Shown here: positions 2,356 to 57,939 of the stretch, one piece after another
How positions within the stretch are numbered: position 1 is the first letter of the stretch
Layout: every line of letters begins with the position of its first letter
Assembly (NCBI GenBank): GCA_031292515.1
Contig: JARLGZ010000269.1
Location: 372,001-436,000 of the forward strand
Length of the DNA: 64,000 nucleotides
Source of the DNA: Puia sp.
GTDB lineage: Bacteria; Bacteroidota; Bacteroidia; Chitinophagales; Chitinophagaceae
Reading direction: 5' to 3'
Program-made: the position numbers and the translations under genes
The notes under the pieces: model-generated
The model's input: the letters and a program-made list of their open reading frames with translations, nothing else
Database searches by the model: none
What the model was told of the DNA's origin: nothing

Positions 2356-2420
2356 CAAAATTAGAAAGGACCGGGTAGTCCCGCGGTAAACCTTGTCACC
2401 CGAAAAAGTGATTTATATCA
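2356..2420 (-). promoter_or_regulatory. Operator plus -7 element, methyltransferase gene
   Basis: Palindrome TGATTTATATCA (2409-2420) and perfect -7 box TAATTTTG (2363-2356 on the minus strand). The centre-to-box distance is 51.5 bp. It drives the gene starting at 2335. Confidence 0.65.
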
Positions 2421-2440
2421 GTTTTTATACAATAGATTTG
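2409..2440 (+). promoter_or_regulatory. Operator near the Crp-type gene, possible autoregulation
   Basis: The same palindrome lies only 18.5 bp upstream of a TAGATTTG box (2433-2440) that almost abuts the ATG at 2450. At that spacing a bound Crp-type protein would cover the -33 region, so repression is more likely than activation. The near-leaderless layout makes the box itself uncertain. Confidence 0.4.
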
Positions 2441-2449
2441 TAGTATAGT

Positions 2450-3157
2450 ATGAGTATAAAAGGCATTTTTCCGATCGATAAGTGGGATTTTGAGAGTGAA
2501 TCGATCCTTGCCGATCTGCCTTCGGGTGATCTGGAATTGCTGATGATCCGTAAATCGGAACACGTGTATAAGAAGGGCGAGGTCATCTTCCGGGAAGGAG
2601 CATACCCGGCCGGCATCTATTATATCGCGAACGGAAAGGCGAAGAAATATAAAGTGGACGGGGAAGGCAGGGAACAGATCATTTATGTCGCCAACACAGG
2701 CGAGTTATTGGGGTATCATGCCATCCTTTCCGGCGACAATTACCCGGATTCCGCTGCCGTATTGGAAGAAAGTATCATTACATTCATACCGAGGGAAGAC
2801 TTCCTGGAAGCCATCAGGCAGTCCGACGTATTGAACCGGAGACTGCTCAGGACTTTGAGCCATGAGTTTGCCGTACTGGCCAACAGCCTCACCATGTTCG
2901 CGCAAAAATCCGTCAGGGAGAGACTGGCTCTCCAACTGATCGTGATCCGTGAAAAATACAAAGTCGATTTTAAACCCGGCATGCCCGTTGAGATAAATAT
3001 GGGTCGCGACGACCTGGCAAGCCTGGTCGGTACCGCCCGGGAAAACGTCGTTCGTATGCTTTCCGAGTTCAGGGAAGAGGGCATCGTGGAGACCCGGGGC
3101 AGAAAAATTATCGTACTCGACGTAAAAAAACTGGTTAAGATCGCCAATTACAGATAA
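2450..3157 (+). CDS. Crp/Fnr family transcriptional regulator
   Basis: 235-residue regulator with an N-terminal cyclic-nucleotide-binding-type beta roll (about residues 20-120), a dimerisation helix (about 125-155) and a C-terminal winged helix (about 180-230). The recognition helix reads GTARENVVRML (194-204), with the CRP-like R-E-x-x-x-R pattern (R197, E198, R202). The protein has no cysteine at all, so it cannot carry an FNR-type Fe-S cluster. The effector is unknown, and the RxS cAMP signature is not obvious in the beta roll. A matching operator (2409-2420) overlaps its own promoter region, which suggests autoregulation. It is a candidate reader of the palindromes found throughout the window. 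Confidence 0.92.
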   Translation: MSIKGIFPIDKWDFESESILADLPSGDLELLMIRKSEHVYKKGEVIFREGAYPAGIYYIANGKAKKYKVDGEGREQIIYVANTGELLGYHAILSGDNYPDSAAVLEESIITFIPREDFLEAIRQSDVLNRRLLRTLSHEFAVLANSLTMFAQKSVRERLALQLIVIREKYKVDFKPGMPVEINMGRDDLASLVGTARENVVRMLSEFREEGIVETRGRKIIVLDVKKLVKIANYR

Positions 3158-3218
3158 TCCCGGTTTTGCCTGGCGGCTTCTCCTGTCTCCGGTTGGTCAA
3201 TTGCCGTATATTGCAGGC

Positions 3219-4820
3219 ATGGAAAACATTGGACTGATCGTCATGCTCCTATTCGGCATCACCTTCCTGGGAGTGCTGAGCAACAAATACAAATTTCCAT
3301 TTCCGATCGCCCTGGTAGTCTCGGGTGTAGTGATCAGCCTGGTCCCGGGCCTGCCGGTCATCACCCTCCAACCCGATATCGTTTTCCTCTTATTCCTGCC
3401 TCCCTTGTTATATGGCGCTGCCTGGTACACCAGCTGGCATGAATTCAGGGCCAATATCCGCCCCATATCCCTGGCGGCGGTGGGTCTCGTGTTCTTCACG
3501 ACCACCCTGGTGGCAGTCGCCGCACACGCGCTCATACCCGGCATGAGCTGGCCGCTCGGTTTCCTGCTCGGAGCCATCATCTCGCCCCCGGACGCCGTAG
3601 CTGCCACGACGGTGACACGAGGTCTCGGGCTGAACCCCCAGCTGATCGCCATCCTGGAAGGGGAGAGCCTCGTAAACGACGCCAGCGGCCTGATCGCATA
3701 TAAATATGCAACGGTAGCCGTACTGGCGGGGAATTTTGTCTTCTGGCAGGCCGGCCTCAACTTCTTGCTCGTGGTGACCGGCGGCGTGGCGATCGGGCTG
3801 GCGATCGGCGCCATCATGTATTTCGTCCACAAGAGATTCATCTGCGACCCGATCATCGAAGTCACCCTTACGCTGTTGACGCCCTTCGCCGCCTATCTGC
3901 TGGCCGAACATTTTCACGGCTCGGGCGTCCTGGCCGTCGTCAGCTCCGGCCTGTTCCTTTCGTTCAACTCGGCGACCATCCTCACGCACCAGAGCCGCAT
4001 CATGTCCTATGCCGTGTGGGATGTCGTCGTCTATGTCCTGAACAGCCTGATCTTTATACTCATCGGTTTGCAACTGAGGAGCATCATGGAAGGTATAAAA
4101 GACTATTCGAAATCCGAGCTCATCTTCTATGGCGCCGTGATCAGCGCGGTCGTGATCGTCGTCCGGTTCGTATGGGTATTGCCGGCAGCCCTCCTGCCGC
4201 GTCTCTTTAGCCGGCGTATCCGGCAGACCGGTTCCATCGACCTGCGCAATAGCGTTGTGTTCGGATGGGCCGGCATGCGCGGCGTCGTGTCCATGGCGGC
4301 GGCCTTGTCATTGCCGCTGCTGATGCCCGATGGCAATCCCTTCCCGCACCGCAATCTCATCATCTACCTCACGTTTTGCGTCATCCTCTCCACGCTTGTA
4401 CTGCTGGGCCTCACCCTGCCCTGGGTCGTCCGCACCCTGCGAATCCCGGCCTATTCCATCGCCGCGGAAGAATATGACGCGCGTATAAAGGTCGTCAGCG
4501 ATACAATCGGTTATATCGAAGAGAATATGTCGCAGATCAACGGAGAACTGCTGAACAATATCAAGAGCAAATACGAAATAAAATACGAACGGCTGCAGAA
4601 GACCGACCTCCCCGCCGGCTATTTCGGTCAGACAGAAAATCAGCCCGTCAACATCTTCAACGAATTCTCGCAGCTCCAGCTCGACATGATCGGCGTCGAA
4701 AGACAGACCCTCACCCGGTTGCACCGGGAAGGTGGCGCCAGCGACGAAGTGCTTCGCAAGATCGAGCGTGAACTCGACCTGGAAGAGACCCGGCTCCGGA
4801 TGGAGATCTACAACGGCTAA
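3219..4820 (+). CDS. Na+/H+ antiporter, CPA1/NhaP family
   Basis: 533-residue monovalent cation/proton antiporter of the inner membrane. ATG 3219 is preferred over an in-frame TTG at 3201 because the hydrophobic first helix begins directly after it. About 12 helices fill residues 1-400. The ion-binding signatures are visible: SPPDAVAAT around D125, ESLVNDASG with N153-D154, and the late CPA1 motif GWAGMRGVVSMAAALSLP. The C-terminal 110 residues are soluble, helical and charged, as in NhaP/CvrA-type proteins, and probably regulatory. The stop codon lies within an imperfect direct repeat (see 4808-4865). Confidence 0.9.
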   Translation: MENIGLIVMLLFGITFLGVLSNKYKFPFPIALVVSGVVISLVPGLPVITLQPDIVFLLFLPPLLYGAAWYTSWHEFRANIRPISLAAVGLVFFTTTLVAVAAHALIPGMSWPLGFLLGAIISPPDAVAATTVTRGLGLNPQLIAILEGESLVNDASGLIAYKYATVAVLAGNFVFWQAGLNFLLVVTGGVAIGLAIGAIMYFVHKRFICDPIIEVTLTLLTPFAAYLLAEHFHGSGVLAVVSSGLFLSFNSATILTHQSRIMSYAVWDVVVYVLNSLIFILIGLQLRSIMEGIKDYSKSELIFYGAVISAVVIVVRFVWVLPAALLPRLFSRRIRQTGSIDLRNSVVFGWAGMRGVVSMAAALSLPLLMPDGNPFPHRNLIIYLTFCVILSTLVLLGLTLPWVVRTLRIPAYSIAAEEYDARIKVVSDTIGYIEENMSQINGELLNNIKSKYEIKYERLQKTDLPAGYFGQTENQPVNIFNEFSQLQLDMIGVERQTLTRLHREGGASDEVLRKIERELDLEETRLRMEIYNG

Positions 4821-4865: not shown

Positions 4866-4932
4866 CACTGAGCTGTCCTCCGGACAAAATCTTCATGACC
4901 ACGACCGGTCTCCTTTAAATCATTTTTTATGT

Positions 4933-4975
4933 TGACGCAGGTCATCTTCTGCCCGTCATCGGAGGCCTAGTTTTA
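4933..4975 (+). promoter_or_regulatory. Operator plus -7 element, YceI operon
   Basis: Perfect inverted repeat TGACGCAGGTCA (4933-4944), with TAGTTTTA (4968-4975) exactly 29.5 bp from its centre. The start codon follows at 4991. Confidence 0.72.
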
Positions 4976-4990: not shown

Positions 4991-5590
4991 ATGAACAGGC
5001 AAAACTTCCCAATGGCGTTTAAACTCCTTCTCCTTGTAGCTGCTCTTCAGGCTCCGGCCATCTTCTCCGCTGCACAGACCCGTTTCTCGACAAGCTCCGT
5101 AAGCCTGCTGATCAGCGGGACCTCCACGCTGCACGACTGGACCATGAAGTCTGCGAAGGCCGATGGTACGGTGCTGTTCGACCTCGGTCCCGATGGGCAG
5201 ATCACCGGCATCCGGTCCCTGGTCTTCTCCACGCCTGCGAACGCGCTGAAGAGCGAGCATACCGGGATGGACAACAACGCTTATAAAGCATTGAAGAGCG
5301 ATCAGTTTCCTGTCATCAGCTACACAATGACCTCGGCGGCCGTCACCCATGGACCCGATGGCAGCGCGATCATAAAATGCGCAGGGACTCTTAGCCTGGC
5401 GGGCGCCACCAGGCAGGAAGATATCGTGGCGATCTGCAGGACCAACCCGGATAATTCGATCATCGTCACCGGGAGTACGCGGATCAGTATGCAGGACTTC
5501 AGGATCGACCCGCCCACTTTCATGCTGGGTACCATCAAAACCGGCAATGAGATCGTCCTGACCTTTAACATCGTCTTCAGAAAATCCTGA
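4991..5590 (+). CDS. YceI family periplasmic protein
   Basis: 199-residue exported protein with a signal peptide (about residues 1-28, cleavage near SAAQ) and a YceI-like lipocalin domain. Visible features are TLHDWTMKS near the mature N-terminus, the central strand region SLVFSTPANALKSEHTGMDNNAYKALK, and the C-terminal MQDFRIDPPTFMLGTIKTGNEIVLTF. YceI proteins bind isoprenoid-type lipids in the periplasm and are often stress induced. It is first in a three-gene group with a barrel protein and a second YceI-like protein. Its promoter (4933-4975) carries a consensus operator at the 29.5-bp spacing. Confidence 0.9.
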   Translation: MNRQNFPMAFKLLLLVAALQAPAIFSAAQTRFSTSSVSLLISGTSTLHDWTMKSAKADGTVLFDLGPDGQITGIRSLVFSTPANALKSEHTGMDNNAYKALKSDQFPVISYTMTSAAVTHGPDGSAIIKCAGTLSLAGATRQEDIVAICRTNPDNSIIVTGSTRISMQDFRIDPPTFMLGTIKTGNEIVLTFNIVFRKS

Positions 5591-7041: not shown

Positions 7042-7695
7042 ATGATGTCTATGTACCTCTTCAAATCTCTTCCGATCCTGGGCCTGTGCTTTGCCTCCCC
7101 CGGTCTCACAACCCCTGGCTTCAGGACCGCCGGCCCGGCAAAAGGCAGCTTGAATATGCCTGAAAAGAAGGAGGAGATCACCTGGATCGTCCAGAAGAGT
7201 AGCAGCCTCCTCATCGCCGGCCATACCAACCTGAGCCATTTTTCCTGCGGAGTCCCCGGGTATGAGGAGCCCGATACCCTCATCCTGGAAGGCGAAACCC
7301 CCGGCGGCATCACGCTCCGGGGTTCCCTCCGCATCGATATCGGCAGCTTCGACTGCCGCAACCGCCTGATGACCGGGGAACTCAGGAAAGCCCTGAAATA
7401 TGCGCAATACCCTCTCCTGACCATCGCCTTTATCAACCTGGAACAAATGCCTCTCTTCAATGACCGTCTGCAGTCGGTACGGGGTGGGGTAGACGTCGGC
7501 CTCGCGGGCGTATGCAGACAATTTGAAATCGACTACACCTCTCGCAGGATCGATGTCACCACGGTGGAGCTGGAAGGATGCCGCGCTTTCAGCTTCTCCG
7601 ACTTCCGGATTCAGCCCCCCCGCAAGATGGGTGGTCTCATCCGGGTAGACGATTCCCTGCAGGTCCGGTTCACGCTGTTTCTAAAACGGGCATGA
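7042..7695 (+). CDS. YceI-like periplasmic protein
   Basis: 217-residue exported protein. A hydrophobic leader (about 1-20) is followed by a divergent YceI domain: SSSLLIAGHTNLSHFSCGV near the N-terminus, GSLRIDIGSFDCRNRLMTGELRKALKYAQYP in the middle, and the C-terminal signature FSFSDFRIQPPRKMGGLIRVDDSLQVRF, which matches the DFRIDPP...GTI pattern of the paralogue at 4991. Two cysteines in the mature domain may pair. The second in-frame Met (residue 3) is an alternative start. It closes the YceI-barrel-YceI operon. Confidence 0.8.
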   Translation: MMSMYLFKSLPILGLCFASPGLTTPGFRTAGPAKGSLNMPEKKEEITWIVQKSSSLLIAGHTNLSHFSCGVPGYEEPDTLILEGETPGGITLRGSLRIDIGSFDCRNRLMTGELRKALKYAQYPLLTIAFINLEQMPLFNDRLQSVRGGVDVGLAGVCRQFEIDYTSRRIDVTTVELEGCRAFSFSDFRIQPPRKMGGLIRVDDSLQVRFTLFLKRA

Positions 7696-7757
7696 CGAAA
7701 ATCATATCGCGGGCTGGATTTGGATCAGGATTATTTTGAAGCGGTCTAATACTTTTG
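7693..7757 (+). promoter_or_regulatory. Operator plus -7 element, small unknown protein
   Basis: TGACGAAAATCA (7693-7704) overlaps the stop codon of the YceI-like gene. Perfect -7 box TACTTTTG (7750-7757) lies 51.5 bp from its centre. Confidence 0.7.
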
Positions 7758-9405: not shown

Positions 9406-9470
9406 TGATTAAGATCAGGGCGAAAACTGAGATCCGTCATACCCCCCCCTTCTCACACGCGCTACCTTGT
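9406..9470 (+). promoter_or_regulatory. Operator plus -7 element, cbb3 oxidase operon
   Basis: TGATTAAGATCA (9406-9417), extended by two more symmetric bases on each side (CC...GG), is close to an FNR box. The likely -7 box TACCTTGT (9463-9470) is 51.5 bp away. The palindrome also lies 79 bp upstream of the divergent receiver-Crp gene. Confidence 0.68.
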
Positions 9471-9499: not shown

Positions 9500-11905
9500 A
9501 TGAAAACCACGATCGATCAGTATATTGCCTGCAGTCACTGCGGAGAGGACTGCAAAACGGAAACTATCGTACTGGGGGATAAGACCTTTTGCTGTGAAGG
9601 CTGCAAAATGGTCTACAGGCTCCTGGATCAAAACGGTCTTTGCGAATACTACCGTCTCAACGAACGGCCGGGAGTGAACCGGCTTGCCGAAGTCCGGAAA
9701 GACAAATTCGCCTTCCTGGATGACGAAAAAATAGCCGGGAAACTGATCGCGTTCCGCAACGAAGAACAAGTCCAGATACGGTTCTATTGTCCGCAGATCC
9801 ACTGCAGTTCCTGTCTCTACCTGCTGGAGCATCTCCATCAGCTGCACCACGGAGTCCTCTCTTCCAGAGTCGACTTTTCGGCCAAAGAAGTCTTCATCGT
9901 CTTCGACCCCTCCCGGCTATCCCTGCGCGGGCTGGCCGAACTGCTCGCATCTACGGGATATGAGCCCTATATCAGCCTGCACGACCTGGGAACGGCCCGA
10001 CCGGGCGTCTCCAGGAGGAGCATCTACCAATTGGGCATCGCCGGCTTCTGCTTTGCCAATATCATGCTGCTCAGCTTCCCCGAATATCTTGGCCTGGATG
10101 CCTCCGAGAAATACCTTCGGACCGTATTCCGCTACCTGAACCTTTTTCTGTCGCTGCCGGTGCTTTTTTACTGCGCACAGCCTTTTTACAGTTCAGCCTG
10201 GAAAAGCCTCCGTCACAAATACCTGAATATCGACGCCCCGATCGCCCTCGCGGTCTTTGTCACTTTTATCCGGAGCGTCTATGACGTAGCCTCCGGCTCC
10301 GGCTCCGGTTATTTCGACTCGATGACCGGCATCGTCTTTTTTATGCTGGCCGGCCGGGCCCTGCAGGACCGGACCTACAGCCGGTTATCCTTCGAACGCG
10401 ATTATACCTCTTATTTTCCGATCGCCGTATCCGTGCTGACGAAAGAAGGCCCGATCACCCGGCCGCTTCCCGAGATCCGGTGCGGCGACACCCTGCTCAT
10501 CCACCACGAAGAACTGATACCCGCCGATGGCATACTCACCCGCGGACAGGCATTGATCGACTACAGCTTTGTCACCGGGGAATCCCTGCCGGTCATCCGG
10601 GAGATCGGCGAGATCGTATACGCAGGCGGAAAGCAGACGGGCGCCGCCGTCGAAATCCTGGTCGTCAAAGAAGTCGCCCAAAGCTACCTGACCCAGCTAT
10701 GGGAAAGACGGGGAAATGTCGGGAAAGACGCCGGGGCGAAAACGAAGCCCGGACCTTCTTTTATAGATTTGCTGAGCCGCACCTTTACCTATATTGTCGC
10801 GGTATTGGCCATCACCTCTTTCCTCTACTGGCAGATACACGATCCGTCCAGGGCATGGAATGCCGCTACCGCCGTGCTGATCATTGCCTGTCCCTGTGCC
10901 CTGCTGCTGTCCAGCTCTTTCACAAACGGGAATATCCTGCGCATACTGTCCAGGAATCAATTATATCTCCGAAACGCCGGCGTGATCGACCGGATCGCCG
11001 CAACATCCCATATCGTCTTTGACAAGACGGGAACCCTTACCCTCGGCAGCCAGGATCCCGTCTATACCGGCAGCCCGCTCACCGCCGGGCAGGAACATGC
11101 CATAGCCACCCTCGCGGCCCAATCTACCCATCCGCTGAGCAGAGCACTCGCCGGTCGCATGACGACGGGTGAGCCCTGCCGGATTCTGGGTTTCCGGGAA
11201 GTACCGGGGAAAGGGATCGAAGGATTCGTCGATGGACACAAGATAGCCCTGGGCTCGCGCCTCTTCGTTACGGGAAAAGACACGGGACCCGGACAGAGCG
11301 CCTCGAAAGTATATGTCGCATGGGAAGGCCGGGTCCTGGGATCCTTCAGCTTTTCCAACCGCTACCGGCCGGGCCTCGCGGGCCTGGTAAAAACGCTTCG
11401 CCGGGATTTTCGTTTGTCCGTATTGTCGGGTGACAATGCCTGGGAACGCGACCGCCTGCGCGAAATCATGGGAGAAGACACGATCCTCCTCTTCGGGCAG
11501 AGCCCGGAAGAAAAAGCCGGCACCATCAGCCTGTTGCAAAAAAGAAACAAAAGCGTGATGATGATCGGCGATGGCCTGAACGACGCGGGCGCATTGCGGC
11601 AAAGCGATACCGGCATCGCCCTTTCGGAAAATGACAGTCATTTTACACCCGCCAGCGACGCCATTCTCGATGCCACACAACTACCCCTGCTGCCCCGCTT
11701 CATTCGGTTATGCAGGGCCGATAAGCAGATCATCCTCGCCAGCTTTGTCCTATCCGCCGTATACAACGTCGCCGGCCTGTTTTTTGCCGTGCAGGGCAAC
11801 CTCTCGCCGCTTATAGCCGCCATCCTCATGCCGCTCAGCTCTTTGAGCATCCTGTTGATCACCTATGGCAGCAGTAACCTCGCAGCCAGGTGGTTGAGGC
11901 TCTGA
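9500..11905 (+). CDS. ccoI: Copper-type P1B ATPase for cbb3 oxidase assembly (CcoI/FixI)
   Basis: 801-residue heavy-metal P-type ATPase. The N-terminus has a cysteine-rich metal-binding module (CSHCGEDC and FCCEGC, residues 11-35), then an HMA domain whose binding loop reads HCSSC. Membrane helices surround C464-P-C466. The phosphorylation motif DKTGTLT starts at D508, an HP pair lies in QSTHPLSRALAG, and the hinge motif GDGLND is at about 690. The family exports or delivers copper for cbb3 oxidase maturation. Position as first gene before ccoS and ccoNO supports this role. The promoter region carries the operator TGATTAAGATCA (9406-9417). Confidence 0.93.
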   Translation: MKTTIDQYIACSHCGEDCKTETIVLGDKTFCCEGCKMVYRLLDQNGLCEYYRLNERPGVNRLAEVRKDKFAFLDDEKIAGKLIAFRNEEQVQIRFYCPQIHCSSCLYLLEHLHQLHHGVLSSRVDFSAKEVFIVFDPSRLSLRGLAELLASTGYEPYISLHDLGTARPGVSRRSIYQLGIAGFCFANIMLLSFPEYLGLDASEKYLRTVFRYLNLFLSLPVLFYCAQPFYSSAWKSLRHKYLNIDAPIALAVFVTFIRSVYDVASGSGSGYFDSMTGIVFFMLAGRALQDRTYSRLSFERDYTSYFPIAVSVLTKEGPITRPLPEIRCGDTLLIHHEELIPADGILTRGQALIDYSFVTGESLPVIREIGEIVYAGGKQTGAAVEILVVKEVAQSYLTQLWERRGNVGKDAGAKTKPGPSFIDLLSRTFTYIVAVLAITSFLYWQIHDPSRAWNAATAVLIIACPCALLLSSSFTNGNILRILSRNQLYLRNAGVIDRIAATSHIVFDKTGTLTLGSQDPVYTGSPLTAGQEHAIATLAAQSTHPLSRALAGRMTTGEPCRILGFREVPGKGIEGFVDGHKIALGSRLFVTGKDTGPGQSASKVYVAWEGRVLGSFSFSNRYRPGLAGLVKTLRRDFRLSVLSGDNAWERDRLREIMGEDTILLFGQSPEEKAGTISLLQKRNKSVMMIGDGLNDAGALRQSDTGIALSENDSHFTPASDAILDATQLPLLPRFIRLCRADKQIILASFVLSAVYNVAGLFFAVQGNLSPLIAAILMPLSSLSILLITYGSSNLAARWLRL

Positions 11906-11992
11906 TTATAATCACCCGCGCTGATGAGCGGGATCATGGGCCGGGCACGATTGCCGGTATACTTTTATGTTATAATAGCTTAATATAAGAAC

Positions 11993-12259
11993 ATGAGTGT
12001 CATTCTGCTCCTTTTGATAGCCAGCCTTTCCGTAGCCCTGCTTTTCCTGGGCGCCTTTATCTGGAGTGTAAAGAACAGGCAGTTCGACGACGGCTTCTCG
12101 CCCCCCCGACGCATATTATTTGACGAGCCCGTCCCGTCATCCGCACCGGTCGTCGCAAGCGAGCCGGTCCCCCTGATACAAACGGCCGGACGGCCCCTGC
12201 CACACAGCGAAGCCGGAGCGCCCGAACAAAACGCGAAAAATTACCAGGAAATAAAATGA
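11993..12259 (+). CDS. ccoS: cbb3-type cytochrome oxidase assembly protein CcoS
   Basis: 88-residue protein with one N-terminal membrane helix (about 3-24), directly followed by the CcoS signature FIWSVKNRQFDD. A proline-rich tail follows (RRILFDEPVPSSAPV), longer than in many CcoS proteins. CcoS is needed for cofactor insertion into the catalytic subunit of cbb3 oxidase. It lies 88 bp after ccoI and 24 bp before ccoNO. Confidence 0.92.
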   Translation: MSVILLLLIASLSVALLFLGAFIWSVKNRQFDDGFSPPRRILFDEPVPSSAPVVASEPVPLIQTAGRPLPHSEAGAPEQNAKNYQEIK

Positions 12260-12283
12260 TCAACTAAAACCCCACGGATCCAT

Positions 12284-14443
12284 ATGGAAATGGAAAAATT
12301 CTATTACGACAACAAGACAGTAAAATGGTTTGCCTATGCCACCCTCTTCTGGAGCATCGTCGGCATGCTGGCCGGGCTATGGATCGCCATCGCCCTCTAC
12401 TATCCGCCCATGAACCTCGGCATTCCCGCCACGACCTTCGGCAGGATGCGTCCCGTACACACGAATGCGGTGATCTTTGCCTTTGTTGGCAACGGTATTT
12501 TTATGGGCGTATACTACTCGTTGCAACGCCTCTGTAAGACCAGGATGTTCAGCGATACCCTCAGCAAGATCCATTTCTGGGGCTGGCAGCTGATCATCGT
12601 AGCAGGCGCCATCACCCTCTGGGCAGGCAAAACAAGCGGTAAGGAATATGCGGAGCTGGAGTGGCCCATCGACATCGCCATCACCCTCATATGGGTCGTA
12701 TTCGGCATCAATATGTTCGGGACGATCCTGAAACGCCGGGAGAGCCATCTCTACGTGGCGATCTGGTTTTATATCGCCACCTGGGTGACCGTCGCCATGC
12801 TGCATATCGTCAACTCCATGGAGATCCCAGTTACCCTGTGGAAGAGCTACAGCGCGTATGCCGGGGTGCAGGACGCACTGGTGCAGTGGTGGTACGGCCA
12901 CAACGCCGTTGCTTTCTTCCTGACTACGCCTTATCTGGGGCTGATGTATTACTTCCTGCCAAAGGCGGCAAACCGGCCCATTTATTCATACCGGCTGTCT
13001 ATCATCCATTTCTGGGCGCTGATCTTTATCTATATCTGGGCGGGACCGCACCACCTGCTGTATACGGCCTTGCCGGACTGGGCCCAGTCCCTGGGCGTGG
13101 TCTTCTCCGTAATGCTGATAGCGCCAAGTTGGGGCGGCATGCTGAACGGCTTGTTTACCCTTCGCGGCGCCTGGGATAAAGTGCGGGAAGATCCTGTTCT
13201 CAAATTCCTGGTGGTGGCCATCACCTGCTATGGGATGGCGACATTCGAAGGACCCATGCTCGCCCTGAAGAACGTGAACGCGATTTCCCACTATACCGAC
13301 TGGACCATCGCTCACGTACACGTCGGCGCCCTGGGATGGAACGGCTTCCTCACCTTTGGCGTCCTGTACTGGTTGATTCCAAGGATGTGGAATACCCAGC
13401 TCTATTCAAAGAAGCTCGCCACCTCGCATTTCTGGATCGGCACCATCGGGATCGTCCTGTACGTGGTACCCTTGTATTGGGCCGGTTTTACCCAGAGCAT
13501 GATGTGGAAGAGCTTTACCGAGGAAGGGGCGCTGAAATTTCAGTTCCTCGAAACAGTAACGCATATCATCCCCATGTATATCACCCGCAGCCTCGGCGGC
13601 GCCCTCTATTTTACCGGCGCCCTGCTGATGATCTATAATCTGCGGAAGACGATCAAACAAGGTAGCTTCGTGGCCAACGAAGCGGCGGAAGCAGCACCCC
13701 TGCCCGCCACCGTCCAGCCGCACGGAAAACAATACTGGCACCGCTGGATCGAAAAGCGCCCCATGCAGATGCTCGTCTTCAGCCTGATCGCCGTAGCCAT
13801 CGGAGGCCTGCTGGAACTGATCCCTACCTTCCTCGTCAAATCGAATATCCCGACCATCAGCAGCGTAAAACCTTATACCCCGCTGGAACTGCAGGGCCGT
13901 GATATATACGTGCGCGAAGGCTGCTACCTCTGTCATTCCCAGATGATACGCCCGTTCCGAGACGAAGTCGCACGGTACGGTGAATATTCCAAAGCAGGAG
14001 AGTTCATCTATGATCACCCTTTTCAATGGGGCTCCAAACGCACAGGCCCGGACCTGGCCCGCATAGGCGGCAAATACCCGGATAGCTGGCACTATAACCA
14101 TATGATGGACCCGCAATCCATGTCGCCGGGTTCGATCATGCCGTCCTATACCTGGCTGCTGGATGACAACATAGATACCGCGGGCACGCCCGCAAAAATA
14201 CGCGTCATGCAGAAGCTCGGAGTTCCTTATCCCGCCGGCTATGCGCAGCAGGCGAATAAAGACCTCGTGTCGCAGGCGGACCAGATCCGGGCCTCTCTGA
14301 AAGCCGATAAGATCCATACCGGCGAGATCAAAGAGATCGTGGCCCTGATCGCCTACCTCCAGCGGATGGGCAAGGACATCAAGGCCATGCCAAAAGACCA
14401 GTCGGCAAAGACCGGTGACGGACAGTCCGTGATGGGTAACTAG
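12284..14443 (+). CDS. ccoN: cbb3-type cytochrome c oxidase, fused subunits I (CcoN) and II (CcoO)
   Basis: 719-residue fusion. Residues 1 to about 480 are the 12-helix CcoN catalytic subunit with heme and CuB histidines: H59 in MRPVHTNAV, H206 in WWYGHNAV, the H256-H257 pair in WAGPHHLLYT, and the VHVGALGWN region. A linker and one more helix lead into a CcoO domain of about 200 residues with one heme c site C547-x-x-C550-H551 (EGCYLCHSQMIRP) and a methionine ligand candidate in MSPGSIMPSYTW. Proteobacteria encode these as two genes; the fusion is usual in Bacteroidota. It reduces O2 to water at low oxygen with proton pumping. Confidence 0.97.
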   Translation: MEMEKFYYDNKTVKWFAYATLFWSIVGMLAGLWIAIALYYPPMNLGIPATTFGRMRPVHTNAVIFAFVGNGIFMGVYYSLQRLCKTRMFSDTLSKIHFWGWQLIIVAGAITLWAGKTSGKEYAELEWPIDIAITLIWVVFGINMFGTILKRRESHLYVAIWFYIATWVTVAMLHIVNSMEIPVTLWKSYSAYAGVQDALVQWWYGHNAVAFFLTTPYLGLMYYFLPKAANRPIYSYRLSIIHFWALIFIYIWAGPHHLLYTALPDWAQSLGVVFSVMLIAPSWGGMLNGLFTLRGAWDKVREDPVLKFLVVAITCYGMATFEGPMLALKNVNAISHYTDWTIAHVHVGALGWNGFLTFGVLYWLIPRMWNTQLYSKKLATSHFWIGTIGIVLYVVPLYWAGFTQSMMWKSFTEEGALKFQFLETVTHIIPMYITRSLGGALYFTGALLMIYNLRKTIKQGSFVANEAAEAAPLPATVQPHGKQYWHRWIEKRPMQMLVFSLIAVAIGGLLELIPTFLVKSNIPTISSVKPYTPLELQGRDIYVREGCYLCHSQMIRPFRDEVARYGEYSKAGEFIYDHPFQWGSKRTGPDLARIGGKYPDSWHYNHMMDPQSMSPGSIMPSYTWLLDDNIDTAGTPAKIRVMQKLGVPYPAGYAQQANKDLVSQADQIRASLKADKIHTGEIKEIVALIAYLQRMGKDIKAMPKDQSAKTGDGQSVMGN

Positions 14444-14494
14444 TCAACCGGTGTCGGAAACCAAGAATCAAAATAATATAAAAAATACCCGGCC

Positions 14495-14653
14495 ATGAAA
14501 TTTATAAACTACCTGGAAAAAATCAGCGGCGTGAGCATCTACGGACTGAGCTCCTTTGCCATCTTCGGATTGTTCTTCCTTGCCATGCTGGTCTGGGCGG
14601 TCAAAGCGGATAAGAATATGATCGACGAGATCCGCCGGCTCCCGCTGGAGTGA
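14495..14653 (+). CDS. ccoQ: CcoQ-like small membrane subunit of the cbb3 oxidase
   Basis: 52-residue protein (MKFINYLEKISGVSIYG to RRLPLE) with a single hydrophobic helix at about residues 16-35 and a charged C-terminus (KADKNMIDEIRRLP). Position between ccoNO and ccoP, size and topology fit CcoQ, which stabilises the complex. Sequence similarity in this subunit is weak, so the call rests on topology and context. The gap upstream is 51 bp. Confidence 0.75.
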   Translation: MKFINYLEKISGVSIYGLSSFAIFGLFFLAMLVWAVKADKNMIDEIRRLPLE

Positions 14654-14711
14654 CAGAATCAGGAACCCTTTGATACCACCCGCCGGCGATACGACAAATC
14701 GGCGGTATAAT

Positions 14712-14766
14712 CAATAGTCGATACAACCAATAGTCGGTCTAGTCAATAGTAAAAAAGTCAATCGTC
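14712..14766. repeat. CAATAGTC repeat upstream of ccoP
   Basis: CAATAGTC at 14712 and 14728, a partial CAATAGT at 14744 and CAATCGTC at 14759; period 15-16 bp. Confidence 0.8.
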
Positions 14767-14782
14767 ATTCAAAAAGTTTTTT

Positions 14783-15880
14783 ATGACCCCTTCTTCGATC
14801 AATAATCCTTTTGTGGTGATCATGATCATTATCATGGTGATCCTGGCCCTCGCGATCGGGCTGCTTGCTAACGTACTGCTCGGGGCTGCCCAGATGACTG
14901 CGGATAAAGATCATTCGGAAAACCGCGATCCGGAGACTGATAAAACCGGTACCCAGGCAGCTTCTCATACTTCTATCCCGGTCGCCCTGATAGCCGGCCT
15001 CCTGCTCGGCGCCTCCCTCCTGCCGGCAATACCTGCGTTTGCACAGGATCAGGCTGGCCAGGCGGCTTCTGCCCCGGCAGCCGCCGCCCCGACAACCGCT
15101 TCCAATGTGAACGGCATCTCGGACACGGCTTTCTATATGATGACAGGCGTAGTCTTCGTGGAGATACTGGTCCTGGTGACCCTGCTCTACAATGTGAAAA
15201 TCCTCCTGGCGGTGCAGAAGAAAAGGCAAATAGCCCCCGCAGGCTCGCCGGAGATCGTAGTGCCGGCCAAACCCCGCATCAGCTGGTGGGATCGGTTCAA
15301 CCGCTTCAAACCCGTCGACCAGGAATTTTCCCTGGACCTGGGCCACGACTACGACGGGATCCGGGAGTTGGACAACCGTCTGCCGCCCTGGTGGCTGTAT
15401 GGATTCTATGGTACCATCCTTTTCGCGTGCATCTATCTCTGGCGTTATCATGTGGTGCACACCGCACCCCTGAGCGGCGAAGAATTCCAGATCGCCATGC
15501 AGAAAGCTGAAGTGCAAAAAGCAGCCTACCTGAAAAAAGCGGCCAACAATGTCGATGAGACCACCGTAAAACTGCTCACCGACCCCGCCGACCTGGCGGC
15601 CGGTAAAGCCGTATTCGAAACCGTCTGCTTCGCCTGTCATGGAAAATCGGGAGAAGGGGGAGTAGGCCCCAACCTGACCGATGATTATTGGCTGCACGGC
15701 GGCGGCATCAGCGATATCTTTAAGACGATCAAATACGGGTGGCCCGACAAAGGCATGAAGAGCTGGAAAGACGACTATTCCCCTCCGCAGATCGCGCAGA
15801 TCGCCAGCTATATAAAATCGCTCAAAGGCACCCACCCCGCCAATCCCAAACCGCCCCAGGGTGTCATAGATAACCAATAA
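14783..15880 (+). CDS. ccoP: cbb3-type cytochrome c oxidase subunit III (CcoP), mono-heme form
   Basis: 365 residues. Two hydrophobic segments lie near the N-terminus (about 10-33 and 70-95, the second ending AIPAFAQ like a signal sequence). An Ala-rich stretch and another helix (FYMMTGVVFVEILVLVTLLYNV) follow, then the CcoP signature GIRELDNRLPPWWLYGFYGTI with a further helix. The C-terminal domain has one heme c motif, C282-F-A-C285-H286. The classical proteobacterial CcoP carries two such motifs, so electron entry here uses one heme fewer in this subunit. The gene is preceded by a repeat-bearing 129-bp gap. Confidence 0.95.
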   Translation: MTPSSINNPFVVIMIIIMVILALAIGLLANVLLGAAQMTADKDHSENRDPETDKTGTQAASHTSIPVALIAGLLLGASLLPAIPAFAQDQAGQAASAPAAAAPTTASNVNGISDTAFYMMTGVVFVEILVLVTLLYNVKILLAVQKKRQIAPAGSPEIVVPAKPRISWWDRFNRFKPVDQEFSLDLGHDYDGIRELDNRLPPWWLYGFYGTILFACIYLWRYHVVHTAPLSGEEFQIAMQKAEVQKAAYLKKAANNVDETTVKLLTDPADLAAGKAVFETVCFACHGKSGEGGVGPNLTDDYWLHGGGISDIFKTIKYGWPDKGMKSWKDDYSPPQIAQIASYIKSLKGTHPANPKPPQGVIDNQ

Positions 15881-15889
15881 AAAACGACT

Positions 15890-17374: not shown

Positions 17375-17387
17375 GCCCCGGATTCGA

Positions 17388-17431
17388 AGAGGATCCGTAG
17401 AAGGTATAGAAGAGAATCCATAGAATGTATA
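17388..17431. repeat. 21-bp imperfect direct repeat before ccoH
   Basis: Copies at 17388-17408 and 17411-17431, sharing AGAG-ATCC-TAGAA-GTATA, between ccoG and ccoH. Confidence 0.8.
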
Positions 17432-17435
17432 AATC

Positions 17436-17930
17436 ATGAAAAATATGCAAAACGATACCATCACAGAAAAGAGAGACAACCATCCTTTCAGGATGAACTG
17501 GGGGAATCGCCTCCTCCTCGTGTTTGTCGTCTTCGGTTCCATGATATCCTACATGGTCTGGCGCTGTATGGAAACACCGGTAGACCTCGTCACAAAGGAC
17601 TACTATAAGGACGAACTCGTCTACCAGGATGTGATTGACGGGGCCCGTAAGGCGGCGGCACTCTCCGGGTCGGTGATCCTGCGGCAGGAGACAAACACGA
17701 TCTCCGTCCAGTTGCCGCCGGAGATGAGGAACACGCAGGTCAGCGGTCATATACTCTTTTATTGCCCTTCCGACGTGGCCAGGGATCGTAACCTGCCGCT
17801 GACACCGGATGCAGGCGGACGACAGGAAATAGACACGCATCGGTTCCTGCCGGGCCATTATCGCGTCAAGATCGGGTGGGAGAGCCGCGGCATCCGTTAT
17901 TTTTCGGAACAGCCCTTCGTCATCCTTTAG
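17436..17930 (+). CDS. ccoH: CcoH/FixH-like cbb3 assembly protein
   Basis: 164 residues: a short cytoplasmic N-terminus (NHPFRMNWGNR), one membrane helix (about 27-47), then the FixH signature ETPVDLVTKDYYKDELVYQDVIDGARKA and a periplasmic beta domain that ends FSEQPFVIL. CcoH associates with cbb3 subunits during assembly. Its stop codon sits in the first copy of a 15-bp tandem repeat (17922-17989). Confidence 0.88.
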   Translation: MKNMQNDTITEKRDNHPFRMNWGNRLLLVFVVFGSMISYMVWRCMETPVDLVTKDYYKDELVYQDVIDGARKAAALSGSVILRQETNTISVQLPPEMRNTQVSGHILFYCPSDVARDRNLPLTPDAGGRQEIDTHRFLPGHYRVKIGWESRGIRYFSEQPFVIL

Positions 17931-17989: not shown

Positions 17990-18075
17990 ACAAATATTCT
18001 TGAACAGCATTCTTGAAAACAGGTCGATAAATATACCGGCCATCACGGGATACAAATCAAAAATCCAATGGGCAT

Positions 18076-23097: not shown

Positions 23098-23130
23098 CGA
23101 AAGCCGGCTGAGCAGAATCACATCCCCGGC

Positions 23131-45539: not shown

Positions 45540-45561
45540 GTGATGAAATAAAATTCATCAC
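45540..45561 (-). promoter_or_regulatory. 8-bp inverted repeat in the hsp20 leader
   Basis: GTGATGAA-N6-TTCATCAC is a perfect palindrome between the -7 box and the AGGAGG ribosome-binding site. It is not the CIRCE sequence. It could be a repressor site or an RNA hairpin in the leader. Confidence 0.5.
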
Positions 45562-45603
45562 AAAACTATCCGGTTTGTTTTGCCAGGACAAGGACGGTCG
45601 TCA
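45561..45603 (-). promoter_or_regulatory. Promoter of hsp20 with near-consensus operator
   Basis: Perfect -7 box TAGTTTTG (45568-45561, minus strand). TGACGACCGTCC (45603-45592), one mismatch, is centred 29.5 bp upstream. A full-consensus palindrome TGATGACGGTCA lies further up at 45627-45638, over the stop codon of the kinase gene. Confidence 0.58.
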
Positions 45604-45635
45604 GCGGCAACCCTGAACCTCGTCACTGATGACGG

Positions 45636-47498
45636 TCAGACCGGCTCCTGATACAGATTGGCGGGGTTCGCAGAGCTAGGGCTGCCTTCAGGCGCCACAT
45701 GCCTGTCTACGGGTTCTGCATGCCTGCCTTCAGGATTTGACTGCCTGTCATCCGGCTCCGACGGTCTGTCCGCTTTTGGGTAGACGATTTCCGCAGGAAA
45801 AAAGACGGTGAATGCCGACCCGCTGCCGGGCGCACTTTGCAGATCGATTCTCCCGCCCATCAGGTCCAGGTATTTTTTCACGATGCTCAGACCCAGCCCC
45901 GTCCCGCCGATGCCGGCCGTATTGGTGGCGCGAAAGAAACGTTCGAACAAATGCTCCTGCTCCTCCACCGGGATCCCGATACCGCTGTCTGTGATCGTGA
46001 AGCTCACGCCGGACGGCCCGAACTGCAGAAGGAACCTGATGACGGTATATTCAGGCGAATATTTGAGAGCGTTGGAAAGGAGATTGTTGAGGACATTCCG
46101 CAGCAGTTGTGCATCGAGCCGGGTTCTTTCGGGTTTTCCCCGGACTTCCAGAATAATCTCCTGACCGGCTTTGCAAGCTTCGCCCAGTTCGCCGGTAATC
46201 TCGTCCACGAATACCGGCAGATCCAGTTCGACAGGGTTGTTCCGGATGAGACCGCCCTCAAGCTTTTCGATCGACAGGAAATCGGTGAGGATCTGTTTCA
46301 GGTTATTGACATGCGATTTGATGCGATGGATGTGTTTCATCCGCTTCTCATCCAGGTCCGGGCCGGCGCCCTGATACTTGCCGATCAGCGACACCGAGGA
46401 AAGGATGACGCTCAACGGCGTCTTGAACTCATGGGAGGCCAGCGTGACGAAACGTGATTTCATTTCATTCAGGTCCTTTTCACGGCTGAGTGCATACCGG
46501 ATCTCCTCTTCCGTTCTCTTTTGTTCCGTGATATCGCGCGTGATCTTCGCAAACCCCCGCAGGCTGCTCCTGTCGTCGTAAAGAGGCGTAAAAATTACAT
46601 CCGCGCAAAACAGGGACCCGTCTTTCCGCTTACGCATACCCACAGTCTCGAAACGGCCGTCCTCCAAAGCTCTTCTCAGATTATAGGCCGGCTCACCGCG
46701 GAGGTTCTCTTCTTCCGTATAGAAAATGGAAATGGGCTGTCCGATCGCTTCTGCTTCCGTATACCCTTTAATCTGCTCGGCCCCCGGGTTCCAGCTCATC
46801 ACCCTTCCCTCCGGATCGATCATAAAAATGGCATAATCCTTTACATGGTTGATCAGCAGGCGAAATCGCTCCTCGGAATCATGCAGCCTTTTTTCCGCTT
46901 TTTTCCGTCGCCGGAAATTATACAGGACGAGCACGAAAAGGGTTACGAGCAGCAGGAAGACAGCCCAAAACAATAAGATAAAGACATTCCTGGACGCATT
47001 CCGGCTCCTGGAATTTGCCTCCTCCCTGATGAGAAGCAGCCGGTTCTCTTCCTGTCTGATGGCCGTAAGAAGATACCGGGATTTGTCCAGGCGATATTTT
47101 TTTTCGGCAGACACCGCCAGGCTTGCCGGGGGGGCCGGCACACCGGCGATGAGGTCCGCTATCGAGTCAGCCCTCAGTTGTTGCCGGAGATTGTCCGCGG
47201 TGAGCTGCTTCAATATCCGGACATGCGCCAAAACTTCCGGGAGCGGATCCACGCGGCGACCGCCCTCATTTTGCGAACCTGCCGAGCCGTTTTCCTGATC
47301 CGGTCCGTTTTCCTGATCCAGCTCCTGCAGGAGTGTGGCAGCCTGGTCAGCCTCATTCATGACGGCCTGGGTATGGTTGACAAGCCGGGAGCCCCCCTCA
47401 AAAGTCCGGTTGTATCGAAACGCAATGATGCCGAGCACCAGGATGCCTGACAAAATGGTGGCGATCAACAGCAGGAAGGTCTTCTTAAAAACGGGCAT
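45636..47498 (-). CDS. Membrane PAS sensor histidine kinase
   Basis: 620 residues from ATG 47498 (MPVFKKTFLLL); the frame extends to 47534 but this Met starts the first helix. A periplasmic helical sensor of about 145 residues lies between two helices, followed by one PAS domain (FRLLINHVKDYAIFMIDPEGRVMSWNPGAEQIKGY). HisKA has TLASHEFKTPLS with its His at residue 356. HATPase has NLLSNALKYSPEY, DSGIGI and GTGLGLSIVKKY. The last 45 residues are a repetitive tail (EP.DR..PEG units). It lies 2.6 kb from a receiver-Crp gene and upstream of hsp20. Confidence 0.92.
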   Translation of the reverse strand: MPVFKKTFLLLIATILSGILVLGIIAFRYNRTFEGGSRLVNHTQAVMNEADQAATLLQELDQENGPDQENGSAGSQNEGGRRVDPLPEVLAHVRILKQLTADNLRQQLRADSIADLIAGVPAPPASLAVSAEKKYRLDKSRYLLTAIRQEENRLLLIREEANSRSRNASRNVFILLFWAVFLLLVTLFVLVLYNFRRRKKAEKRLHDSEERFRLLINHVKDYAIFMIDPEGRVMSWNPGAEQIKGYTEAEAIGQPISIFYTEEENLRGEPAYNLRRALEDGRFETVGMRKRKDGSLFCADVIFTPLYDDRSSLRGFAKITRDITEQKRTEEEIRYALSREKDLNEMKSRFVTLASHEFKTPLSVILSSVSLIGKYQGAGPDLDEKRMKHIHRIKSHVNNLKQILTDFLSIEKLEGGLIRNNPVELDLPVFVDEITGELGEACKAGQEIILEVRGKPERTRLDAQLLRNVLNNLLSNALKYSPEYTVIRFLLQFGPSGVSFTITDSGIGIPVEEQEHLFERFFRATNTAGIGGTGLGLSIVKKYLDLMGGRIDLQSAPGSGSAFTVFFPAEIVYPKADRPSEPDDRQSNPEGRHAEPVDRHVAPEGSPSSANPANLYQEPV

Positions 47499-47768
47499 AC
47501 GACGGGTGTAAAACTTTTTATGGTAAAGGGCCACGCTCGGGCCATTTCAGGTAGTCAAGGGGTAAGGGGGCGAGGGTTTAATCAAAGTACCGATCGGCCG
47601 GGTAAGAGGTTTTGTATCGACCGGTGAGGAGGCTTAGTTGCCTAAAGATAGGCTGTTTAAGCTTACCCCGGAAATGAGTCGCCGATATTTAAACAAAAAC
47701 CTTAGGATGTCTTAACGCTCCGGCAGATCACCGGAAACCGCCTGCTCCTTTCGCCGCGTAACCCCGTT

Positions 47769-52131: not shown

Positions 52132-52215
52132 GATACGCTTCTTTCTTTCAAATATATTCCCCGGGGCAACCCGCCCGGGAGATCCCGGTCAGTCAGTCGA
52201 ATGACCTTGCTCAGG

Positions 52216-52280
52216 TGACGATCATCAAGAGAGTTCCTGATCAGGGTCATAATTAACAGAGCCGATTTGATATTCCTTTG
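52216..52280 (+). promoter_or_regulatory. Two tandem operators plus -7 element, nitroreductase operon
   Basis: TGACGATCATCA (52216-52227) and TGATCAGGGTCA (52238-52249) are 22 bp apart. TTCCTTTG (52273-52280) is 51.5 bp from the first and 29.5 bp from the second, so both positions are used at one promoter. Confidence 0.7.
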
Positions 52281-54111: not shown

Positions 54112-54176
54112 TGACCAGGATCAGGTTCCGCCTGCTCGCAGGTCATAGGATCGGCATCTTGCGGGAAATACCTTTA
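54112..54176 (+). promoter_or_regulatory. Operator plus -7 element, DUF2892 gene
   Basis: TGACCAGGATCA (54112-54123) with TACCTTTA (54169-54176) at 51.5 bp. The leader is about 20 bp. Confidence 0.65.
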
Positions 54177-54199: not shown

Positions 54200-54415
54200 A
54201 TGAAAAAGAACACAGGGATCACAGACAGGGTTATCCGGTTTGTGCTGGCCGTTATCCTGATCGATATAGCTTCCGGGAAAACCATCAACGGCATATGGGA
54301 CGTGATTGCCTGGACGGCCGCGGCCATCTTGCTGATTACCGCAGTGCTGGGCCGATGTCCGCTCTATTCCCTTTTTGGCATATCCACCTGCCCGCGCAAA
54401 AAAACGATCGGATGA
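54200..54415 (+). CDS. DUF2892 (YgaP-like) small inner-membrane protein
   Basis: 71 residues: RVIRFVLAVILIDIASG and WDVIAWTAAAILLITAVLG are two membrane helices, followed by the DUF2892 signature GRCPLYSLFGISTCP. In other bacteria this domain is fused to rhodanese (YgaP) or stands alone near sulfur and stress genes. Function is unknown. The promoter has TGACCAGGATCA 51.5 bp upstream of TACCTTTA. Confidence 0.9.
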   Translation: MKKNTGITDRVIRFVLAVILIDIASGKTINGIWDVIAWTAAAILLITAVLGRCPLYSLFGISTCPRKKTIG

Positions 54416-57270: not shown

Positions 57271-57292
57271 GAGAAATGACGGCGGGAAATAA
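57249..57292. repeat. Exact 22-bp tandem duplication spanning a stop codon
   Basis: Copies at 57249-57270 and 57271-57292 are identical. The first ends with the TAA stop of the cytochrome gene. Confidence 0.95.
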
Positions 57293-57299
57293 TTCCGTC

Positions 57300-57802
57300 C
57301 CGGTATGTATACCCCCGTCAGGAACCCCTCGCCGCCCTAGCCCGTGCAATGACCAGTAAAAGAGCCCCCGCAAAAAGACAGGACCGGCGCTCCAGAGCAG
57401 CGAGGGAAGGATTTCGATGCCCGGAAGCCAATACGCGGCCACCTGGATCGCTAACAAGACCTCGTTGGAGAGGACCGCAATAGCAAACACGATCAACGCG
57501 AAAGAGGTGAATTTCATGCCGCCGGCCAGTAAGCCTCTTTGCGTATAACGGACCAGGATGAAGAGACTGATGAAACCCCGCCCGGACCAGCCACCCCGGG
57601 TTCTGCCAGAGATAGGAGAGGAACAAGGACGGCAGGATCGAGAGACACAAAACCCGTGCAAACCGGCGGACCCTTTTCCCATCCCTGCTCCCGGCATCGG
57701 CGACGGTAGCGGGAGAGAGCCCCGTCCCCCCTCTCCGGGGAAAGCAGCCAGCATGCCCCAGGCGGCAACCGCAATCCCCCCAGCAGCGAACAATCGAACC
57801 AT
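57300..57802 (-). pseudogene. Frameshifted small membrane protein remnant
   Basis: Coding-like minus-strand sequence is split over two frames. It opens MVRLFAAGGIAVAAWGMLAAF (from 57802), then moves to another frame with ARVLCLSILPSLFLSYLWQNPGWLVRAG. It returns to the first frame with FISLFILVRYTQRGLLAGG and KFTSFALIVFAIAVLSNEVLLAIQ, a typical helix series. The switches fall close to a six-base homopolymer (57726-57731) and a GGCGGGG-like run (57575-57582), so they are probably single-base indels or sequencing errors. I recognise no family. A short intact frame of 186 residues exists but reads poorly in its middle. Confidence 0.42.
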
Positions 57803-57897
57803 TTATCCTTGCCGGTCATCCCCCCAAGAAACGATATTTCCGGTCTCGCCGACCTGAGTCTTGTCAAAAAAAGACAGACAATAGTCACTATCCGCGC

Positions 57898-57939
57898 TGA
57901 TGGAAGTCATGTCAAAAGCCAGCTAAAAAGAAGTATTTG
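57898..57939 (+). promoter_or_regulatory. Possible operator upstream of the N-ATPase operon
   Basis: TGATGGAAGTCA (57898-57909) matches the palindrome. The nearest box, AGTATTTG (57932-57939), sits at 28.5 bp and lacks the TA, so the promoter is doubtful. A one-mismatch copy, TGAGTCTTGTCA, lies at 57855-57866. atpD starts 160 bp downstream. Confidence 0.4.

Follow-up and report, generated by a model that had tools for sequence, protein, structure and literature searches.

A tandem Crp/Fnr-type operator unit with fixed promoter geometry and a putative low-oxygen regulon in Puia sp. and related Chitinophagaceae

Several described systems bear a likeness to the locus considered here, a stretch of 64,000 nucleotides from Puia sp. 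(Chitinophagaceae; assembly GCA_031292515.1, contig JARLGZ010000269.1, positions 372,001 to 436,000 of the forward strand; hereafter the window), in which pairs of Crp/Fnr-type operators recur at a fixed distance from a promoter box. In class II promoters of CRP, the dyad lies at -41.5 and overlaps the upstream promoter element. In mycobacteria, the DosR-type dormancy regulon places Usp, nitroreductase and Hsp20-like genes under a haem-sensing two-component system. ANR and FNR of Pseudomonas and E. coli recognize operators with a TGA-N6-TCA core, the motif being given as TTGATNNNNATCAA, and their targets include hemN and cco (PMC6588701). In rhizobia, the FixLJ-FixK system (hFixL-FxkR-FixK) operates alongside FnrN. 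According to two articles, FnrN, which carries an iron-sulphur (Fe-S) cluster, and the Fe-S-free FixK share one operator (PMC7888657, PMC4999443), hFixL acts through a separate FxkR, and fixNOQP and fixGHIS of R. leguminosarum have one anaerobox each within 90 bp (PMC7888657); the authors of PMC4999443 propose that the Fe-S ligands were lost independently. Finally, Flavobacterium psychrophilum has a TAnnTTTG box at -12 to -5, and its cbb3 oxidase is strongly up under oxygen limitation, in a report whose main text names neither Crp nor Fnr (PMC9723704).

The window carries a tandem unit of two TGA-N6-TCA dyads and a TAnnTTTG box, and the sequence data point, with a probability of roughly 0.7, to a low-oxygen activator regulon of the Chitinophagaceae that resembles those of FNR, ANR and FixK, is gathered in an island of about 78 kb and has a receiver-Crp fusion protein as its main reader. 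With the FixLJ-FixK system it has in common a FixL-like kinase, a Crp/Fnr activator free of Fe-S ligands, and targets of the cbb3/fixGHIS type. Here, however, the receiver is fused to the Crp-type protein without a separate FixJ or FxkR step, and two dyads 22 bp apart are the rule, in contrast to the single anaerobox of R. leguminosarum. The system would work like FixL-FixJ-FixK but is not a member by architecture: a single protein serves as response regulator and activator, and each operator has two dyads. Compared with ANR and FNR, the operators do not need an outer T and A (no copy among the 27 palindromes of the window fits TTGAY-N4-RTCAA), the regulators of the window do not have the FNR cysteine pattern, the layout is tandem, and the promoter has the -7 box of Bacteroidota. 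The CRP class II arrangement would be matched by a dyad centred at -41.5 that overlaps the upstream promoter element, but a second, abutting dyad would lie at -63.5, and the profile of units from related loci holds no conserved -33 element. The DosR-type regulon is alike in its Usp, nitroreductase and Hsp20-like genes and differs in regulator family (Crp-type here) and operator. Among the papers returned by searches of PubMed Central literature, we found no account of the operator unit or of a receiver-Crp fusion in such a role; subscription journals and preprints lay outside these searches.

A sequence-only reading of the window had placed the palindromes at either 29.5 or 51.5 bp from a TAnnTTTG-like box, measured from the dyad centre to the first base of the box. 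Both offsets are exact. Among 39 directed TGA-N6-TCA sites of the window, 51.5 and 29.5 bp are the two best offsets, with 10 sites each that match the box in at least 5 of 6 positions (mean 0.37 per offset). When only the 23 directed sites of full consensus are taken, the corresponding numbers are 5 and 7 boxes versus 0.22. The two distances do not represent two promoter classes, an interpretation we reject, as they belong to the two dyads of one unit: boxes peak at both offsets because the dyads are paired with their centres 22 bp apart. The unit consists of a distal dyad, a proximal dyad 22 bp away (centre to centre) and the TAnnTTTG box, which begins 57 bp after the first base of the distal dyad. 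It has 18 fixed bases (6 in each dyad, 6 in the box), and units are scored below by their matches to these 18. That nitroreductase had been listed at both distances was already half a glimpse of this layout. The window contains 17 units with a score of at least 15/18; across 200 first-order Markov simulations the average was 0.015, and no run produced more than 1. At the divergent promoters 21557-21652 and 42713-42808, the same two dyads are used in both directions, so that the distal dyad of one gene is the proximal dyad of its neighbour. In the profile of units from related loci, both dyads read (A/C)TGAY-N4-RTCA(T/G) and the box reads TAnTTTTG, both dyads have similar outer bases, an A-rich centre is confined to the distal dyad, and the spacer bases carry almost no information. 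The inferred leader has a median length of 27 nt (ORF present for 230 of 243 related-locus sites). If the box position of Flavobacterium applies, the dyad centres would fall at -41.5 and -63.5; these values agree with the earlier expectation of a dyad at -41.5 and further upstream by helical turns.

The palindrome alone, TGAY-N4-RTCA (TGAYNNNNRTCA), is present in 27 full-consensus copies per 64 kb, whereas 100 dinucleotide shuffles average 3.37 copies and never exceed 10, in line with the excess claimed earlier over about four expected copies. Using a rough codon-usage gene caller to separate coding from non-coding DNA, the non-coding part of the window (8,725 bases) holds 17 copies and the coding part (55,275 bases) 10 (1.95 versus 0.18 per kb). 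Twelve other spacings and 16 other half-sites reach at most 2 copies each in the non-coding DNA of the window. The rest of the contig (labelled C137; C28, C171, C198, C211 and C283 likewise denote contigs of this genome) holds 8 copies in 76,271 non-coding and 40 in 379,458 coding bases, that is 0.105 per kb in both, and the non-coding density of the window is about 19 times this value. The first 220 kb of C28 hold 5 copies in 33,181 non-coding and 18 in 186,819 coding bases. We note that the whole-genome count (699 versus 137 for the reversed pattern) was discarded as a measure of a genome-wide regulon: it is misleading because the palindrome is about equally dense in coding and non-coding DNA in stretches outside the island. 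The enrichment is a local property of the island, and the contrast between genes and the DNA before them, which the sequence-only reading had proposed as a decisive comparison, is pronounced within the island and absent outside it.

Conservation was analysed in related loci, defined as the best 80 of 566 places matched by a scan with the receiver-Crp protein P0002 (1.39 Mb; record titles mostly Chitinophagaceae, Chitinophagales or unplaced Bacteroidota). These loci contain 112 dyad pairs at 22 bp, compared to a mean of 1.15 and a largest value of 4 for the other spacings from 12 to 60. Perfect boxes number 78 at 51.5 bp and 63 at 29.5 bp, the median for all offsets being 1. Among sites with flanking sequence, 243 units score at least 15/18 and 46 are perfect, while the reversed sequence yields none above 14. 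Of the 63 sites whose proximal dyad and box are both perfect, 46 also have a perfect distal dyad, and in 56 it has at least 4 of 6 matches. The unit precedes 25 of 27 readable ccoNO and 23 of 27 ccoI homologues, 12 of 20 Hsp20, 5 of 6 Usp28321, 4 of 4 NimA-like, 16 of 54 homologues of kinase 18861 and 7 of 24 homologues of the 7775 gene. It is found before none of the operon-internal homologues of ccoG (0/29), ccoH (0/26), ccoP (0/17) and DsbD2 (0/28), nor before the homologues in these loci of several window genes that have one to seven of them. The shifted-geometry controls keep two of the three true elements and hence are not empty (ccoNO 9/27, ccoI 6/27, fusion 10/76). Beyond these loci, 55 of 60 sampled family genomes carry units when 2 mismatches are allowed (604 hits versus 11 reversed), and 149 genomes of the order give 493 hits versus 15 reversed for the tandem pairs alone. 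Among the 198 genomes of a phylum sample, one hit or more is found in 28 of the 36 that belong to the same class but not to the order (147 versus 5 reversed); the 149 from other classes stay close to background, with 45 having a hit (63 versus 20 reversed). The Puia sp. genome itself has 45 hits at up to 3 mismatches versus 0 reversed. A set of chance matches, a base-composition artefact or a repeated element in place of operators could draw on the genome-wide excess of the palindrome over its reverse, which is largely coding in the stretches read. For the tandem unit we regard such an origin as extremely improbable: the reversed-pattern and shifted-spacing controls, the Markov simulation and the conservation across genera exclude chance, and the unit is not a copied element because its spacer bases are almost free of information.

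Within the genome of Puia sp., TGA-N6-TCA-N10-TGA-N6-TCA occurs 19 times and its reverse not at all; 9 of these pairs are in the window and 4 just past its right edge. Allowing up to 3 mismatches, the 45 unit hits are distributed over C137:374-452 kb (23 hits, 17 in the window and 6 to its right), C283:15-53 kb (13 hits), the 9.9-kb contig C171 (3 hits) and 6 positions elsewhere, 4 of which have 3 mismatches and are perhaps due to chance. Consequently, 39 of the 45 hits lie within three contig segments of about 126 kb, or 1.7% of the genome. The claim of one regulon over most of the window is supported by sequence and targets, with the reservation that some genes of the window have no unit. 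Its extent had been put too narrowly, since besides the island in the window it takes in about 16 kb past the right edge, the second island on C283 and the third group on C171. The C283 island (L187-L189) has 13 units at genes encoding Usp, BON, OsmC, nitroreductase, LpxR, baeRF and erythromycin-esterase-like proteins; in a search with P0002, fusions were found on C137 only. Targets beyond the window comprise Usp genes, MlaE, HemN, a COX2-domain protein, an alcohol dehydrogenase, two aldo/keto reductases, a nitroreductase, OsmC, an erythromycin-esterase-like protein and LpxR. The hemN gene is located at C137:450446-451876 (TIGR00538, 1.1e-95 on a shortened ORF, slightly below the curated cut-off). 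One BON gene beyond the window sits 599 nt downstream of its unit; two nearest-gene assignments more than 1 kb from a unit were left out of the list.

In their gene content, the targets of the unit correspond to FNR/ANR/FixK regulons with survival proteins added. Both a cbb3 oxidase (ccoI, ccoNO) and the oxygen-independent HemN are found among them, and together with Usp, Hsp20, alcohol dehydrogenase and nitroreductase genes they fit a low-oxygen reading. Many of the targets (Usp, BON, OsmC, Hsp20, nitroreductase, aldo/keto reductase), and a second kinase of the window that is not haem-like, would also suit a general energy or redox stress, such as stationary phase, nitrosative or electrophile stress, as the signal in place of oxygen. 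We hold this to be quite unlikely, as cbb3, HemN and the COX2-like subunit speak for oxygen, the linked kinase has a FixL/DosP-like PAS domain, and an Fe-S-type FNR is encoded beside the same units in some relatives.

The units of the window confirm the genes named by the sequence-only reading, with some corrections of detail. From left to right, units precede a methyltransferase gene at 1739-2356 (2356-2420, minus strand, 17/18), the gene 4991/5012-5590 (4911-4975, plus, 15/18 with a weak distal dyad) and the 7775 gene (7693-7757, plus, a weak 14/18 with a full distal dyad, a perfect box and a degenerate proximal dyad). The label YceI for the second of these could not be upheld, as ORF 4991-5590 has no Pfam or NCBIfam match at 0.001. 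Two units belong to the genes for cbb3 oxidase and its assembly (9500-18810, plus; ccoI, S, NO, P, G, H and a DsbD_2-domain gene by Pfam), one before ccoI (9406-9470, plus, 16/18) and one before ccoS-ccoNO-ccoP (11903-11967, plus, 17/18). The first divergent pair serves alcohol dehydrogenase (21557-21621, minus, 17/18) and points in the other direction, with both dyads in common, towards a DUF3943 gene (21588-21652, plus, 17/18). There follow units before VIT1 (23109-23173, plus, 18/18), the ATP-grasp_5/Succ_CoA_lig gene 25364-27238 (27242-27306, minus, 18/18), a BON gene (27335-27399, plus, 16/18 with a weak distal dyad), Usp 28321 (28241-28305, plus, 16/18), a ppsA/PPDK-type gene (29923-29987, plus, 16/18) and holin-like/Usp genes (33913-33977, plus, 17/18). 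The second divergent pair consists of the units before a NimA-like (Pyridox_ox_2) gene (42713-42777, minus, 17/18) and PfkB (42744-42808, plus, 16/18), again with both dyads in common. The remaining units are found before Hsp20 (45561-45625, minus, 17/18; the site is present as described earlier, with one mismatch in its proximal dyad), towards polysaccharide deacetylase and ABC transporter genes (52149-52213, minus, 17/18), before nitroreductase (52216-52280, plus, 17/18) and before a small ORF at 54200-54415 (54112-54176, plus). The latter ORF, previously called DUF2892, does lie behind a unit, albeit a weak one (14/18). Only 4 of the 6 box positions match in the units of ppsA, ccoI, Usp 28321 and PfkB. 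No unit of at least 14/18 stands directly before the ABC/HlyD export block or the N-ATPase genes of the window. The N-ATPase-type operon on its right side (58070-62739) encodes AtpR, ATPase_gene1 and A, B and beta-like subunits; a full dyad near it, at 57898, has no box at either distance.

Three Crp-type proteins are encoded in the window. P0001 (2450-3157, plus, 235 aa) is a plain Crp/Fnr-type regulator with Pfam domains cNMP_binding and HTH_Crp_2. The main candidate regulator, fusion 1 (P0002; 8269-9327, minus), combines these two domains with Response_reg, and fusion 2 (P0003; 43757-44905, plus, by Pfam, with an uncertain start that the gene caller puts at 43868) is the second match to P0002 in this genome with 52% identity. 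As read from the sequences, P0001 has no cysteine at all and neither fusion shows the FNR four-cysteine pattern; by eye, the residues that we take to form the cAMP pocket of CRP appear to be absent from the Crp-type proteins of the window. The recognition helix of the fusions is E(S/T).IR in 89 of 90 rows, and that of the FNRs examined is mostly E(S/T)(A/T)IR. In the Crp tree, fused and plain proteins are on opposite sides of a well-supported branch, and P0001 belongs to a clade of plain Crp proteins (5 rows, 100/99 support) from at least five genomes among the 30 matches read. The tree is used only for this split and this clade, as its midpoint is set by one misplaced fragment (L146; labelled 'other', like the truncated fusion L167) and the tree program warned of long branches meeting there. 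We do not consider P0001 an established case of an FNR that lost its cysteines: because it forms its own clade, descent from FNR is not established. As a side observation, the genome encodes two further Crp-type proteins (L204 on C198 and L206 on C211) with a C...CFLC N-terminus and the recognition helix YETVF(R/K).

With its location in the island beside unit 2356-2420, and with members of its clade in four other fusion-positive genomes of the family, P0001 might itself be the main reader and leave a subset of promoters to the fusions. This is unlikely in our view: with RENVVR, its recognition helix differs from the E(S/T).IR common to FNRs and fusions, and its clade was seen in only those five genomes among the 30 matches read. 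A division of labour between the dyads is also conceivable. The A-rich centre of the distal dyad and the presence of three Crp-type proteins would suit an AND gate in which the two dyads bind different regulators, for example fusion 1 and either fusion 2 or P0001. The alike outer bases of the two dyads and the occurrence of units with the same two dyads in genomes poor in Crp-type genes, such as G069 and G029 with two HTH_Crp_2 matches each, make this arrangement rather improbable.

The preferred candidate, fusion 1, has a likely partner in the histidine kinase at 18861-20444 (minus, by Pfam), a homologue of which is present in 60 of the 80 fusion loci. The PAS domain of this kinase has the haem domains of DosP and FixL as its best PDB matches (4.6e-13), and 58 of 60 ungapped rows of its homologues have a His at what we take to be the position of the haem ligand of DosP. 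Haem binding by this first kinase is therefore likely, given these matches, the conserved His and the second kinase as a control. The latter, also a PAS histidine kinase by Pfam (45636-47534, minus), has best PDB matches that are not named as haem proteins.

The number of units per genome was compared with the type of sensor. The 47 fusion-positive genomes among the 60 of the family have a median of 9 units, versus 1 in the 13 others. The difference persists at similar genome size, the medians being 7.5 with fusion (32 genomes) and 1.5 without (8 genomes) for genomes of 2.4-5.0 Mb. Rich unit sets mostly accompany the fusion. The fusion is, however, not required for the tandem layout, a possibility we rejected because genomes that lack the fusion (no P0002 match at 1e-40) and encode an Fe-S-type FNR can hold 5 to 13 units and carry the unit beside that FNR. 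In seven fusion-free genomes (G144, G095, G125, G069, G029, G042 and G055), a plain FNR-like gene has a unit no more than about 1.5 kb from its DNA-binding part; for G034, also fusion-free, the nearest unit is about 150 kb away. The FNRs of fusion-free relatives (for example L194-L196 and L198) have CxxC, further N-terminal cysteines and a cysteine at what we assume to be the position of C122 of FNR. The cysteine filter (CxxC, 4-9 residues, C) misses, and in the tree labels as cysteine-free, the FNRs of the order-level family f14, where the gap is longer and the cysteines are seen on reading, and the 12 family genomes classed as 'FNR' include G165, G191 and G195, whose proteins lack the full cysteine pattern, as does that of G153. 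These observations suggest that the operators are probably older than the fusion and able to be served by an FNR. In three genomes of f14 (G029, G042 and G055; L199-L201), the outer sequence of the tandem units is often extended to GGTGA/TCACC and the FNR has KETAIR as its helix, possibly a co-change of operator and helix. Separately, FNR-like proteins of relatives on at least two branches of the tree (L212, L216, L217 and L218) miss at least one expected Fe-S cysteine, which, as judged from sequence, is a repeated erosion of the cluster site.

A number of observations weigh against the fusion as main reader or against oxygen as its signal. Three fusion-free genomes with an Fe-S-type FNR, G095, G125 and G144, have 13, 9 and 5 units, respectively. 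Five fusion-free genomes of the family with an FNR-like gene have only 1, 1, 1, 3 and 3 units, and the eight with neither fusion nor FNR-like gene have 0-2, hardly fewer than these five. In f14, three fusion genomes are without tandem pairs and three fusion-free genomes have 4, 3 and 6; f19 points in the same direction. The promoter of the fusion itself has a unit in only 5 of 76 loci, and the nearness of units to the fusion in the 80 loci is partly by construction, because the loci were chosen by the fusion. For the kinases, the position that we take to be the oxygen-contact Arg of FixL is Arg in only 33 of 66 rows of the first kinase, and the second kinase does not have a haem-PAS profile, matching other sensor proteins best (1.6e-10), ahead of FixL (about 2e-7) and DosP (about 9e-7). 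At the level of sequence, the comparisons above establish that the unit exists with a fixed spacing, is conserved across family and order, and occurs in clusters close to genes for Crp-type regulators, and they support a Crp/Fnr-type regulon with fixed operator-promoter geometry.

We propose that two Crp-type dimers would sit side by side on the same face of the DNA at -63.5 and -41.5. The proximal dimer would contact RNA polymerase as in class II activation, and the distal dimer may assist by cooperative binding or by contact with the alpha subunit. In Puia sp., the main reader would be the receiver-Crp fusion, phosphorylated by the kinase with the FixL/DosP-like PAS domain; where rhizobia use a cascade of three steps (FixL, FixJ and transcription of fixK), two proteins would suffice here. 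Low oxygen as the putative signal would turn on the cbb3 oxidase, the COX2-like subunit, haem synthesis by HemN, fermentation-type dehydrogenases and survival proteins. In some fusion-free relatives, an FNR with Fe-S-type cysteines probably reads the same operators. A broader and rather doubtful proposal is that the 22-bp unit is a two-dimer platform of the Chitinophagales, in which the oxygen sensor was exchanged (an Fe-S FNR for a haem kinase and fusion) with the operators unchanged, and whose two positions may be read by different Crp-type proteins, integrating oxygen with a second signal.

For the family, the unit is sharp enough, with 18 fixed bases and no reversed hits at up to 3 mismatches in the Puia sp. 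genome, to predict the regulon in most genomes of the Chitinophagaceae. The exchange of an oxygen sensor over fixed operators would constitute a natural experiment, parallel to that of FnrN and FixK in alphaproteobacteria, and the unit poses the structural question of how a pair of Crp-type dimers that abut at 22 bp acts together with the polymerase of Bacteroidota.

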